This document shows, in pieces, positions 28,093 to 38,710 of a stretch of 64,000 nucleotides of DNA. Every line of letters starts with the position of its first letter. Positions within the stretch are counted from its first letter, which is position 1. Both the position numbers and the translations under genes were made by a program. Origin of the DNA: Streptomyces sp. NBC_00525 (GTDB taxonomy: Bacteria > Actinomycetota > Actinomycetes > Streptomycetales > Streptomycetaceae). The notes under the pieces were generated by a model. The model had not been told where the DNA came from. It searched no databases and worked only from the letters and a program-made list of their open reading frames with translations. The stretch lies in contig NZ_CP107834.1 in assembly GCF_036346595.1 (NCBI RefSeq), positions 3,038,001-3,102,000 on the forward strand, given 5' to 3'.

Positions 28093-29028
28093 ATGTCCGC
28101 CACGCGCTACGCATATCTCGGCCCTGAAGGCACCTTCACCGAGGTCGCCCTCCGTACGCTCCCGGAATCCGCCACCCGCGAACTCGTCCCGATGGTCTCC
28201 GTACCGGCGGCTCTGGACGCGGTGCGCAACGGTACGGCCGCCGCGGCGCTCGTACCGATCGAGAACTCCGTCGAGGGCGGTATCACCACCACCCTCGACC
28301 AGCTGACCAGCGGCGAACCGCTGATGATCTACCGCGAGGTGCTGCTCTCCATCACCTTCGCACTGCTCGTTCGGCCCGGCACCAAGCTGTCCGACATCAA
28401 GACGGTCACCGCCCACCCGGCCGCCCAGCCGCAGGTGCGCAACTGGATGGCCGCTCATCTCCCGCAGGCCGTCTGGGAGTCGGCGGCGTCCAACGCGGAC
28501 GGCGCACGGCTCGTCCAGGAGGGCCGGTACGACGCGGCGTTCGCGGGCGAGTTCGCGGCGGCCACGTACGGGCTCGAACCGCTGGTGACCGAGATCCACG
28601 ACGCGGAGAACGCGCAGACCCGCTTCGTACTGGTGGGCCGGCCGGCCCGGCCCGCGGCGCCGACCGGCGCGGACAAGACCTCCGTGGTGATCTGGCTGGG
28701 CGAGGACCATCCCGGCGCCCTGCTCGAACTGCTCCAGGAGTTCGCGGTGCGCGGGGTGAACCTGATGCTGATCCAGTCGCGGCCGACCGGGGCGGGCATC
28801 GGCAACTACTGCTTCGCGGTGGACGCCGAGGGCCATATCGCCGACCGGCGGGTCGGTGAGGCGCTGATGGGGCTCAAGCGCATCTGCCCGAATGTGCGCT
28901 TCCTCGGCTCCTATCCGAGGGCCGGTGTGACCCCGGCGGACGTACGCCCTCTGCGCGCCGGTACGTCGGACGCCGAGTTCACCGAGGCCTCCGACTGGCT
29001 GGCGCGCAACCAGGACGGGCGGGCCTGA
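28093..29028 (+). CDS. pheA: Prephenate dehydratase
   Basis: A 311-aa monofunctional enzyme converting prephenate to phenylpyruvate for phenylalanine synthesis. The catalytic domain has YLGPEGTFTEVA, VPIENSVEGGI and the conserved NAQTRFVLVG (TRF motif). A C-terminal ACT domain (HPGALLELLQEFAVRGVNLMLIQSRP) is the allosteric site for phenylalanine; the usual ESRP reads QSRP here. It lies next to a DnaA-box-rich intergenic region. Confidence 0.95.
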   Translation: MSATRYAYLGPEGTFTEVALRTLPESATRELVPMVSVPAALDAVRNGTAAAALVPIENSVEGGITTTLDQLTSGEPLMIYREVLLSITFALLVRPGTKLSDIKTVTAHPAAQPQVRNWMAAHLPQAVWESAASNADGARLVQEGRYDAAFAGEFAAATYGLEPLVTEIHDAENAQTRFVLVGRPARPAAPTGADKTSVVIWLGEDHPGALLELLQEFAVRGVNLMLIQSRPTGAGIGNYCFAVDAEGHIADRRVGEALMGLKRICPNVRFLGSYPRAGVTPADVRPLRAGTSDAEFTEASDWLARNQDGRA

Positions 29029-29124
29029 CGGCGGCCGTCCGCACGACGGGGGTCTGACAGCCACGGGCCCGATGCCCCGGCCACCCGGCCACCCGGCTAC
29101 CCAGGCGGTGGCCGGGGAACAGCC

Positions 29125-29468
29125 CTGTCCACACGGCTGGTGGGATCAGCGGATTGTCCTCACTGAAAAGTTATCCACAGGCGCGCATCCATGCCTGGGG
29201 ACAAGTCGACACTGGAATCCGACATGGTCGACAAATCAACACAGCCCACCTGGACCCGTCCACAGAGTTCCAGGCCGCCCGGTGTCAGCACAATTCCATT
29301 GATCAACTCTTTAGGGCTAGCAATTCCCACCCGAATGAGCGCGCAAAGCAGGTTTGAACCATGAATCCACGCGTTTCCACCGGCCGCCCGGAATGACCCC
29401 ATCCATGTCCACAGACTTCCCCCACAGCCTGTGGATAACTTTGACGAACCACTCACCCCTGTGGACAA
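29125..29468. promoter_or_regulatory. DnaA-box cluster between pheA and serS
   Basis: Six nonamers fit the DnaA box: CTGTCCACA at 29125, TTATCCACA at 29171 (perfect), CCGTCCACA at 29256, ATGTCCACA at 29405, TGTGGATAA at 29430 and TGTGGACAA at 29460 (reverse strand, both perfect). Two more have one mismatch (29154 and 29196). They fill a 576-bp gene-free stretch that is less GC-rich than its flanks. S. coelicolor has known DnaA-titrating clusters near oriC; this is probably one of them (see findings). Confidence 0.8.
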
Positions 29469-29604
29469 GCGGCGAGCAACTCCCCCTTCACGCAAGGCCG
29501 ATGCGGCACGAACCCAGAATGCCGAATAGTGGCAATTCGGGCAAAGCGCCACGCTTGTGCCCATCGGTTCAAGCGCCGGAAGCGGGCCCCGGTAGCCTGG
29601 GGGA

Positions 29605-30894
29605 GTGATTGACCTTCGCCTGATTCGTGAGGACCCCGACCGTGTTCGCGCCTCCCAGCGCAACCGGGGAGAGGACGTCGCACTCGTCGACGCCCTGCTC
29701 TCCGCCGACGAACGGCGCAGGTCGTCCGGGGTCGCATTCGACGAACTCCGCTCCGAGCAGAAATCGCTCGGCAAACTCATCCCCAAGGCGTCCCCCGAGG
29801 AGCGCACCGAGCTCCTGAAGCGCGCCGAGCAGCTCAAGGCCGACGTCAAGGCGGCCGACGCGGCCCAGGACGAGGCCGACGCGGAGACCAGGAACCTGCT
29901 GCTGCGGCTCGGCAACATCGTCCACCCGGACGTGCCGGTCGGCGGCGAGGAGGACTTCGTCGTCCGGGAGACGCACGGGACGATCCGTGACTTCGGCGCC
30001 GAGGGCTTCGAGCCCAAGGACCACCTGGAGCTCGGCGAGGCACTGGGCGCGATCGACATGGAGCGCGGCGCCAAGGTCTCCGGCTCGCGCTTCTACTACC
30101 TGACGGGCGTGGGCGCGCTGCTGGAGCTCGCCCTCGTCAACGCGGCGATCGCCCAGGCCACCGAGGCCGGCTTCACCCCCATGCTGACCCCGACGCTGGT
30201 CCGCCCGCGCGCCATGGAGGGCACCGGCTTCCTCGGCCAGGCCGCCGACGACGTCTACCACCTCGACAAGGACGACCAGTACCTGGTCGGCACCTCCGAG
30301 GTACCGCTCGCCGCGTACCACATGGACGAGATCATCGACGCGGAGAAGCTGCCGCTGCGCTACGCCGGCTACTCGTCCTGCTACCGCCGCGAGGCGGGGA
30401 CGTACGGCAAGGACACCCGCGGCATCTTCCGGGTCCACCAGTTCACCAAGGTCGAGATGTTCTCGTACGTCGACCCGGCGGACGCGGAGGCCGAGCACCT
30501 GCGCCTGCTCGACTGGGAGAAGCAGTGGCTCACCGGCCTGGAGCTGCCCTTCCAGGTCATCGACGTCGCCAGCGGCGACCTGGGGGCGTCGGCCACCAGG
30601 AAGTACGACTGCGAGGCGTGGATTCCGACCCAGGGCAAGTACCGCGAGCTCACATCGGCGTCCAACTGCGGCGAATTCCAGGCCCGCAGGCTCTCGGTCC
30701 GGATGCGGGACAACCGCGACGGCAAGAAGGTCATGAAGCCGCTGGCCACGCTGAACGGCACGCTGTGCGCCGTCCCGCGCACCATCGTGGCGATCCTGGA
30801 GAACCACCAGCTGTCCGACGGTTCGGTGCGGGTGCCCGAGGTGCTCCGTCCCTACCTGGGCGGGCGCGAACTCCTGGAACCGGTCGCCAAGTGA
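29605..30894 (+). CDS. serS: Seryl-tRNA synthetase
   Basis: A 429-aa class II synthetase charging tRNA-Ser. The N-terminal antiparallel coiled coil (about 30-110) binds the long variable arm of tRNA-Ser. The core has motif 2 ([12 protein letters not shown]), the [10 protein letters not shown] loop and motif 3 ([20 protein letters not shown]). The start is GTG 29605; GGGGG lies directly before it, too close for a normal ribosome site, so a leaderless or short-leader message is likely. It overlaps the downstream HAD gene by four bases. Confidence 0.97.
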
Positions 30895-31817: not shown

Positions 31818-32510
31818 TCAGCGCGTGTTGCGGCGGTTCAGCTCCTTCAGGTTGCGTGCGAGGGCGTCCATGCGCCCGTCGAGCCGGTCGACGCCCTCGG
31901 CCGCCCCGCTGAGCCGCGCGCTCATGGCGCCGACCACCTGATGGGTGACCTCCAGCCTCCGGTCGAGGCTGTCCAGCCGGTGCGACATCCGGCTGAGGAC
32001 CGGGCCCAGCTCCTGGAGCGCGATGCCCACGCCGGCCAGGTGGCTCTCGACCCGCGTCACGCGGTGTTCGAGCGACGCGTATCCCGCGCGCAGGTCCTGC
32101 TCGGCGTCGAGCAGATACGTACGCACGCACCGAGCGACGTCGCTGTCGCGAAGGAGCATGGCGACGTTGAGGACGGTTCGGCGGGTGTAGAGACGGAGCT
32201 GAGTGGCTGCCTGTGGATAACTTCCACCCTCCTCGCCGCCCCATAGCGACATCGTGTCGCTATGGAAGTCACGCAGCTCAGAGCCTCGCAGCACATGCAT
32301 TCCATTCTCGGAGAGCTCGTTCTGGTGCCGGTCGGTCAGCCTCCTGACCGTCTTTGTGGATACTTCGAAGTAACGAGCCACGTCCTCTGTGCGAACGTGA
32401 ATCCCGTCGGGGAGCATGACAAGGATCTTCACCTTGTCCAGGGCATCGACGCGCCCCATCTGTTCGACACGCAACGCGCGTGATTCGATCAAGGCGACTT
32501 CTGTTGGCAT
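31818..32510 (-). CDS. Putative DNA-binding regulator, phage-antirepressor-like, with coiled coil
   Basis: A 230-aa protein beginning MPTEVALIESRALRVEQ. Residues 30-75 look like a winged-helix domain (LPDGIHVRTEDVARYFEVSTKTVRRL), followed by RGSELRDFHS and RRTVLNVAMLLRDSDVARCVRTYLLDAEQ (about 105-140), a pattern found in phage antirepressor-type and so-called restriction endonuclease-like proteins of Streptomyces. The last 85 residues are a predicted coiled coil rich in RLDSLDRRLE heptads. It is a single gene with no phage neighbours. A perfect DnaA box lies within the coding region. Confidence 0.65.
   Translation of the reverse strand: MPTEVALIESRALRVEQMGRVDALDKVKILVMLPDGIHVRTEDVARYFEVSTKTVRRLTDRHQNELSENGMHVLRGSELRDFHSDTMSLWGGEEGGSYPQAATQLRLYTRRTVLNVAMLLRDSDVARCVRTYLLDAEQDLRAGYASLEHRVTRVESHLAGVGIALQELGPVLSRMSHRLDSLDRRLEVTHQVVGAMSARLSGAAEGVDRLDGRMDALARNLKELNRRNTR
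32212..32220. promoter_or_regulatory. Perfect DnaA box inside the antirepressor-like gene
   Basis: TGTGGATAA is the exact complement of TTATCCACA. It falls inside codons for the SYPQ part of the protein, about 2.7 kb from the DnaA-box cluster. Confidence 0.5.
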
Positions 32511-38568: not shown

Positions 38569-38622
38569 GTTGTCCACAGAATCGCCAACGAACCTGTGGA
38601 TAAGTCGAGTTGGCTGTGGATC
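38569..38622. promoter_or_regulatory. Second group of DnaA boxes, upstream of kptA
   Basis: Three nonamers in 54 bp: TTGTCCACA at 38569-38577 (perfect), TGTGGATAA at 38594-38602 (perfect, reverse) and TGTGGATCA at 38614-38622 (one mismatch, reverse). They lie between the hydrolase-SDR stop and kptA. Confidence 0.7.
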
Positions 38623-38710
38623 AAACCTCCGAGCGGGAATCGTTCCGGTGAAGCCGGGAAGAAGAGGAAATGCGGATGCGCCGGGGCGCCGCCGGGAGGA
38701 CGCTGAAGGG

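Follow-up and report, generated by a model that had tools for sequence, protein, structure and literature searches.

A conserved two-module cluster of predicted DnaA boxes between pheA and serS of Streptomyces, probably a replication-control locus near oriC

The gap between pheA and serS of Streptomyces sp. NBC_00525 harbours a cluster of DnaA boxes that is real and far above chance, and that recurs as two box pairs in every scored genome of the genus. We consider it quite probable that this cluster serves Streptomyces and its relatives as an oriC-proximal control locus bound by DnaA, presumably the ortholog of S. coelicolor D78, at which a two-module complex would restrain re-initiation. Most likely, the locus would thus act as a brake on the start of replication. 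A role in replication control had been proposed in an earlier reading of this DNA without database searches (the sequence-only reading), and it would still offer the best explanation of a strongly conserved, predicted DnaA-box cluster near oriC. What limits initiation in Streptomyces, which grow as long multi-chromosome hyphae, is poorly known. A DnaA-box cluster near oriC is a known kind of element, and no description of this locus and its layout was found in the accessible literature, the scope of which comprises neither the 2006 D78 paper nor most subscription papers.

The pheA-serS gap and its DnaA boxes

The window, i.e. the whole stretch of 64,000 nt that was analysed, spans positions 3038001-3102000 of the 7.10 Mb genome; window positions are given below with five digits and genome positions with seven. 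The left flank of the cluster is pheA, coding for prephenate dehydratase (28093..29028, plus strand; PF00800, E 7e-48, with an ACT domain), and the right flank is serS, coding for seryl-tRNA synthetase (29605..30894, plus strand; PF00587, E 7e-33, and PF02403, E 9e-27). Between the pheA end at 29028 and the serS start at 29605 lies a gap of 576 bp without any known gene, in agreement with the sequence-only reading, which had called the stretch gene-free. Several small ORFs are listed in the gap, and were set aside as unlikely genes given that both its length (455-996 bp) and its non-box sequence vary among genomes. No RNA gene was recognised either, as Rfam yielded no match up to E 1 across 28900-29750. 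Another rejected candidate is an IHF-like mid-gap site, TTGATCAACTCTTT, which looks datA-like in NBC_00525, but whose core is found in 13 of 100 gaps, and the full IHF consensus in none. A strongly conserved TAGCCT at 29593-29598, directly before the serS start codon, looks like a -10 element from which serS would be transcribed with almost no leader.

A DnaA box was defined as a site with at most one mismatch to TTRTCCACA, and a perfect box as one with none. Seven such boxes, three of them perfect, are present in the gap. The sequence-only reading had reported six boxes including three perfect ones; its coordinates and its perfect boxes hold, while the total has to be raised to seven. Dinucleotide shuffles of the 576-bp gap (n=5000) contain 0.19 boxes on average and three at most, and neither seven boxes nor three perfect ones were reached in any of the 5000, which bears out the earlier expectation that box density exceeds that of shuffled DNA. 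The composition of the gap is 62.7% GC, and its lowest 50-bp window has 44%, the same as the oriC stretch.

With regard to chromosomal position, dnaA is located at 3153974, and the oriC cluster, whose 15 boxes include two that overlap, occupies 3155215-3155787 in the interval from dnaA to dnaN, the latter name being our reading of the translation. The gap cluster therefore lies about 88 kb from oriC. The suggested proximity to oriC is thereby upheld, the distance being about 88 kb and not the 78 kb given there for D78. The TTNTCCACA sequence occurs at 78 sites in the 7.10 Mb, 26 of which are within 100 kb of oriC versus 2.2 expected; three are inside oriC and three inside the pheA-serS gap.

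Conservation of the individual boxes

The genus sample consists of 121 genomes in which serS was located; 100 of the other 120 were sampled and 20 left out, giving 101 genomes with NBC_00525, of which 100 were scored, G010 having no pheA match in its piece. In all 100, the gap carries a cluster, of four to nine boxes with two to five perfect ones, so that the comparison of this gap across Streptomyces, put forward as a check by the sequence-only reading, turned out in its favour wherever both genes were found. Both box pairs are also present upstream of serS in G010. Perfect boxes number 5.17 per kb in the gap versus 0.107 per kb elsewhere in the 20-kb pieces (100 genomes). In 57 of the genomes with serS and dnaA on the same contig (for three, the distance was taken over the contig end), the two genes are 75-137 kb apart (median 86.4), and they lie on the same strand in 56, the exception being G012.

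The conserved sites form two modules, the first with box A on the plus strand and boxes B and F on the minus strand, the second with box E on the plus strand and boxes C and D on the minus strand; their strength is guessed from mismatch counts. Box A (29171..29179, +), a presumably strong box that opens module I, reads TTATCCACA in 99 of the 100 genomes. Box C (29430..29438, -), also presumed strong, has the same sequence in 93, TTGTCCACA in four and TTTTCCACA in three, and together boxes A and C constitute a perfect 16-nt inverted repeat in NBC_00525. Box D (29460..29468, -), which is TTGTCCACA and follows 30 bp after C, is perfect at the aligned site in 81 genomes and within one mismatch in 94. 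Box E (29405..29413, +; ATGTCCACA), which opens module II and is weak, comes within one mismatch of the consensus at its aligned position in 33 of the 100 genomes and is conserved mainly in its TCCACA half, with TCCACAG at least 95% conserved in the alignment. The weak predicted site F (29226..29234, -; TTGTCGACC), 30 bp after B, shows at most two mismatches in 80 of 95 fitted genomes, a level that shuffled sequence reaches in 0.7%. Mean column conservation amounts to 0.999 for A, 0.960 for B, 0.992 for C, 0.939 for D and 0.820 for E, and to 0.651 for the non-box remainder of 29100-29539. Two further boxes of NBC_00525, CTGTCCACA (29125..29133, +) and TTGTCCTCA (29154..29162, +), are lineage-specific, with a box at the aligned site in two genomes including NBC_00525 and in NBC_00525 itself, respectively.

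Box B (29196..29204, -; TTGTCCCCA), 25 bp after A, behaves differently from A and C. Its aligned site is within one mismatch of the consensus in 100 of 100 genomes and perfect in none. Nine distinct one-mismatch forms occur, namely TTGTCCCCA in 80 genomes, TTATCCCCA in nine and seven others in 11, and parsimony on the serS tree counts 11 changes. In nine genomes of related genera with the same layout, box B is likewise one mismatch off and never perfect (0/9); in the remaining family genomes carrying a cluster, a box B with at most one mismatch was not found in place. Since box B stays one mismatch away from the consensus in all 100 genomes while A and C are near-invariant, we read this as probable selection for an intermediate predicted affinity. 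Two neighbouring elements within 29205-29237 are also conserved: GTCGACA, directly after box B, with a mean conservation of 0.97, and GTCGACAAATC, which starts 22 bp on and overlaps box F, with 0.94. Both AAGTCGACA and GTCGACAAATC have a single occurrence in the 400 kb examined.

Two-module geometry and helical phase

In NBC_00525 the two triplets are congruent, their sites lying at 0, 25 and 55 bp. Pairs were searched for as a TCCACA on the plus strand and, 23-26 bp on, a box as defined above on the minus strand, the A-C distance being free above a minimum of 120 bp. Exactly two such pairs are present in each of the 100 genus gaps, and 186 of these 200 pairs have a spacing of 25; in 2000 shuffled gaps there are none. 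The A-B spacing is 25 in 87 genomes, 24 in nine and 23 in four, and the E-C spacing, for which the search requires TCCACA, is 25 in 99 and 26 in one. When spacings from 14 to 44 are scanned, 25 yields 186 pairs, 37-38 yields 59, 14 yields 20, 24 yields nine, and the others 0-5. The 37-38 class corresponds to a second, different forward box located 12-13 bp before box A in many genomes. Complete triplets were fitted in 95 genomes, G018, G035, G037, G051 and G060 being left unfitted because the script limits A-C to 290 bp. Among those fitted, the B-F spacing is 30 in 89 and 31 in six, and the C-D spacing is 30 in 59 and 31 in 31.

The distance between the modules is variable yet phased. From A to C it ranges from 250 to 312 bp, with peaks near 260, 270 and 280. 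In 19 independent genome pairs that differ by more than 3 bp, obtained by greedy pairing on a one-gene (serS) tree, the differences in module spacing deviate by a mean of 1.13 bp from multiples of 10.5, and none of 20000 randomisations that destroy phase gives a value as low. Under the same test, the pheA-to-A distance gives no signal (deviation 2.67; 11294/20000 as low) and the C-to-serS distance a weak one (2.15; 423/20000). Rayleigh tests on distinct lengths give R 0.58 (p 0.0011) for A-C and R 0.35 (p 0.0013) for A-serS, and no significant phasing for C-serS (R 0.15, p 0.29) or pheA-A (R 0.10, p 0.48). Three A-C lengths, 273, 294 and 295, each from one genome, are out of phase. The helical phase could stem from another DNA-bending protein. 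Taken together, two congruent modules, a box B that is never perfect and a phased module spacing suggest that the predicted DnaA sites form an ordered complex rather than a loose sponge.

Related genera and the limits of the cluster

Beyond Streptomyces, the family was sampled with 20 genomes representing 14 further genera. At least four boxes lie between pheA and serS in 15 of them (the pheA match being partial in G198 and G154), and the Streptomyces layout is found in nine of the 20. In the remaining five, pheA is located 1.5-3.8 kb upstream of serS; a lost pheA-serS adjacency was rejected as the cause of their missing boxes, pheA being nearby in all five. In G123 and G134, four boxes remain next to the pheA stop codon, at over 1 kb from serS; the DNA between them and serS in G134 contains an open frame with DAGK and PAP2 domains. 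G137, G147 and G124 (genera g2 and g5) carry three, two and seven boxes, respectively, 0.1-1.3 kb upstream of pheA, and zero, zero and one within 1.5 kb before serS. The second half of the locus, module II, is rearranged in genera g3, g11 and g14, and the single genome of g10 has six boxes all facing one way. Given these rearranged, one-way and displaced clusters, the family as a whole does not share the exact geometry. A separate observation concerns G134 (genus g15), whose genome contains 320 perfect TTRTCCACA boxes versus nine for the reversed control. Among the first 100 positions, many of them lie in short co-directional arrays with a period of 75-78, 109-111 or 134 bp, and the repeat units in five pieces (L250-L254) differ from one another, their core being TTATCCACAG or TTGTCCACAG.

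A class-level search covered 60 genomes, of which 46 outside the family gave a match; 26 outside loci were obtained, 25 of them readable upstream. No cluster is present in these 25 genomes: none has two boxes, and three have a single one-mismatch box. In 13 of the 25, pheA is directly upstream of serS, and from this distribution the gene pair appears to predate the boxes.

Other DnaA-box loci around oriC

The sequence-only reading had extended the cluster into a diffuse titration zone of about 10 kb on the basis of boxes at 32212, 36583 and 38569. These boxes do exist, the last one at 38570, but the drop in perfect boxes from the gap to its surroundings described above does not support such a zone. 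The single boxes at 32212 and 36583 have at best patchy conservation: perfect boxes 2.5-3 kb past the serS start, the place of 32212, are present in 16 of 100 genomes, and those 6.5-7 kb past it in 20. Nor is 38570 a stray box, as it is the first of a separate conserved triad (38570..38623) on mixed strands, made up of 38570(+) TTGTCCACA, 38595(-) TTATCCACA and 38615(-) TGATCCACA. Its inverted pair is found within 14 kb past the serS start in 63 of 100 genomes, with a spacing of 25 in 58 and 26 in five, and by a second pattern TGTGGA follows within 25 bp in 62 of 62. Searching 41 genus genomes for a perfect inverted pair with a spacer of 8-28 gives 45 occurrences spread over 33 of them, the reversed control giving none in the 41. 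Of these occurrences, by our reading, 31 belong to the 38570 triad (three by sequence alone), 13 to a locus about 20 kb beyond oriC, and one is other.

Two more loci lie outside the window. At -37 kb, a dense DnaA-box array (3118583-3118671) is delimited by two perfect end boxes, their span being 89 bp in 17 of the 20 matching genomes and 100 bp in the other three (41 searched; control 0). This array is 33-36 kb from dnaA in 17 of the 18 genomes with dnaA on the same contig. In the exception, G012, an array of this type is about 407 kb from dnaA, which, together with the opposite strands of serS and dnaA, suggests an inversion near oriC in that genome. At +20 kb (3175240-3175450), TTGTCCACA is followed 157 bp later by an inverted TTATCCACA pair, and other genomes have this pair as well, about 20-28 kb past dnaA. 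The conservation of the 38570 triad and of the -37 kb and +20 kb loci argues for several separate loci of fixed geometry around oriC instead of a diffuse titration zone.

Relation to D78 of S. coelicolor

D78, H24 and H69 are probably names of cosmids, and D78 would not denote a distance; a literature check on the name yielded nothing relevant. The D78 cluster of S. coelicolor reportedly binds DnaA more tightly than oriC, and its deletion reportedly increases initiation. In that species, serS is SCO3961 and pheA is SCO3962, and a ScbR2 target upstream of serS was confirmed by EMSA (Table 2, PMC4595836). The printed ScbR2 site matches, with one mismatch, the middle of the gap of G118, an S. coelicolor-like genome in which 79.0 kb separate serS from dnaA when the contig ends are joined. 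Judged from this printed site, S. coelicolor would possess a homologous gap, and it is plausible that the pheA-serS cluster is the ortholog of D78, among known elements its nearest counterpart. Fourteen named records (including S. tendae, S. rochei, S. ardesiacus and S. coelicoflavus) were retrieved through a 24-base stretch of the gap of S. coelicolor-like sequence, and both box pairs are present in all 14. By comparison with S. coelicolor, the predicted ScbR2 site would fall at about 29270-29300, in the spacer between the two box modules; NBC_00525 is absent among the best 25 matches to the 28-mer site. A link between butyrolactone signalling and the locus is conceivable.

Proposed mechanism and alternatives

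We infer DnaA binding and a restraint of initiation because, according to reviews, DnaA-box clusters of S. coelicolor that lie near oriC or are analogous to datA repress untimely initiation (PMC4585315, PMC5742627). Boxes A, C and D, the strong ones, would usually be occupied by DnaA, and the weaker B, F and E would be filled only at plentiful DnaA, probably in its ATP form. The two congruent modules, about 260 bp apart on one helical face, would then unite via DnaA-DnaA contacts into one compact or looped complex. Such contacts have a precedent, since the DnaA complexes that form on either half of the S. coelicolor oriC unite into a hairpin, domain I of the protein dimerises, and its long domain II has been proposed to reach distant boxes (PMC5448010). 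We propose that, as the locus lies about 88 kb from oriC and would be copied soon after initiation, the capacity to hold DnaA doubles early, free initiator falls and re-initiation is restrained. A tentative and more specific version, which we would not yet bet on, is a phase-locked two-module switch combining strong and deliberately weak boxes at 25 and 30 bp, whose modules would fold above a set level of DnaA (or ATP-DnaA) and turn weak into strong sequestration or change the nucleotide that DnaA carries. Several loci of fixed geometry, at -88, -79, -37 and +20 kb, would then surround the origin, this one among them.

The boxes may instead merely soak up DnaA, their arrangement being irrelevant. 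Such a passive sponge has some chance of being right without being the reading we favour: consensus boxes are present and concentrated near oriC (26/78 within 100 kb), and B. subtilis clusters outside oriC have been interpreted in this way (PMC5295017), but it would need neither the 25/30-bp spacing, nor the helical phase, nor a permanently imperfect box B. Titration alone does not explain the fixed geometry, and it is the mix of consensus and off-consensus boxes, along with the fixed phase, that favours an ordered complex. The same mix in three-box modules of fixed geometry would also suit a datA- or DARS-like catalytic site that alters the nucleotide state of DnaA beyond holding it, given that minimal datA has low- and high-affinity boxes (PMC10950094) and that DARS sites have a three-box core in common (PMC4245941). 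We find this rather doubtful, as the E. coli IHF consensus WATCAANNNNTTR occurs on neither strand of any of the 100 gaps, although without its first base it is found in 34.

A DnaA-dependent transcriptional control of serS (or pheA) through upstream boxes seems unlikely. The gap is indeed the upstream region of serS, with boxes A-D 434-137 bp before its start, the A-to-serS and C-to-serS distances are partly phased, and DnaA is a transcription factor in other bacteria (PMC8203912). The C-serS phase is, however, much weaker than the module-module phase, and the boxes of G123 and G134 stay with pheA when serS is more than 1 kb away, beyond the DAGK/PAP2 frame in G134, which makes serS control the less likely. 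The boxes of g2 and g5 lie upstream of pheA, and the 25 readable genomes outside the family have no cluster, even the 13 with pheA just upstream of serS. A second or vestigial origin, finally, is hardly credible: the DnaA boxes cluster in a stretch that is gene-free and relatively rich in AT (62.7% GC), which could recall one, but the locus is about 88 kb from dnaA-dnaN, where the genome's own 15-box cluster sits, and it has fewer boxes than that cluster. For the preferred reading, a two-module locus restraining re-initiation, the fixed geometry, fixed phase and obligately weak box offer exact mutations with which to tell passive sinks from ordered switches among oriC-proximal DnaA clusters.

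Comparison with known systems

The E. coli datA locus is likewise a non-coding DnaA-box locus that restrains initiation and combines low- and high-affinity boxes (PMC10950094). It differs in having one IHF site, the pheA-serS gaps being without a full E. coli IHF consensus (0/100). DARS1 and DARS2 of E. coli are described as having a three-box core, which would liken them to the modules found here (PMC4245941). DARS, however, raises ATP-DnaA, and DARS2 is stimulated by IHF and Fis (PMC4245941), whereas the S. coelicolor clusters are described as repressive. According to a 2017 review, DnaA of S. coelicolor has no known protein partner (PMC5448010). In B. subtilis, joint removal of the clusters outside oriC leads to early initiation, but it takes the loss of all six for a strong effect, and the accessible parts of that source state no fixed two-module layout (PMC5295017). 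Closer to the present case, Streptomyces oriC contains two box groups united by DnaA into a hairpin, which resembles the two-module proposal (PMC5448010), although it has 19 boxes over nearly 1 kb compared with six conserved sites in the pheA-serS gap. D78 (Smulczyk-Krawczyszyn et al. 2006, J. Bacteriol. 188:6184) is, like the locus described here, an oriC-proximal DnaA-box cluster in Streptomyces.
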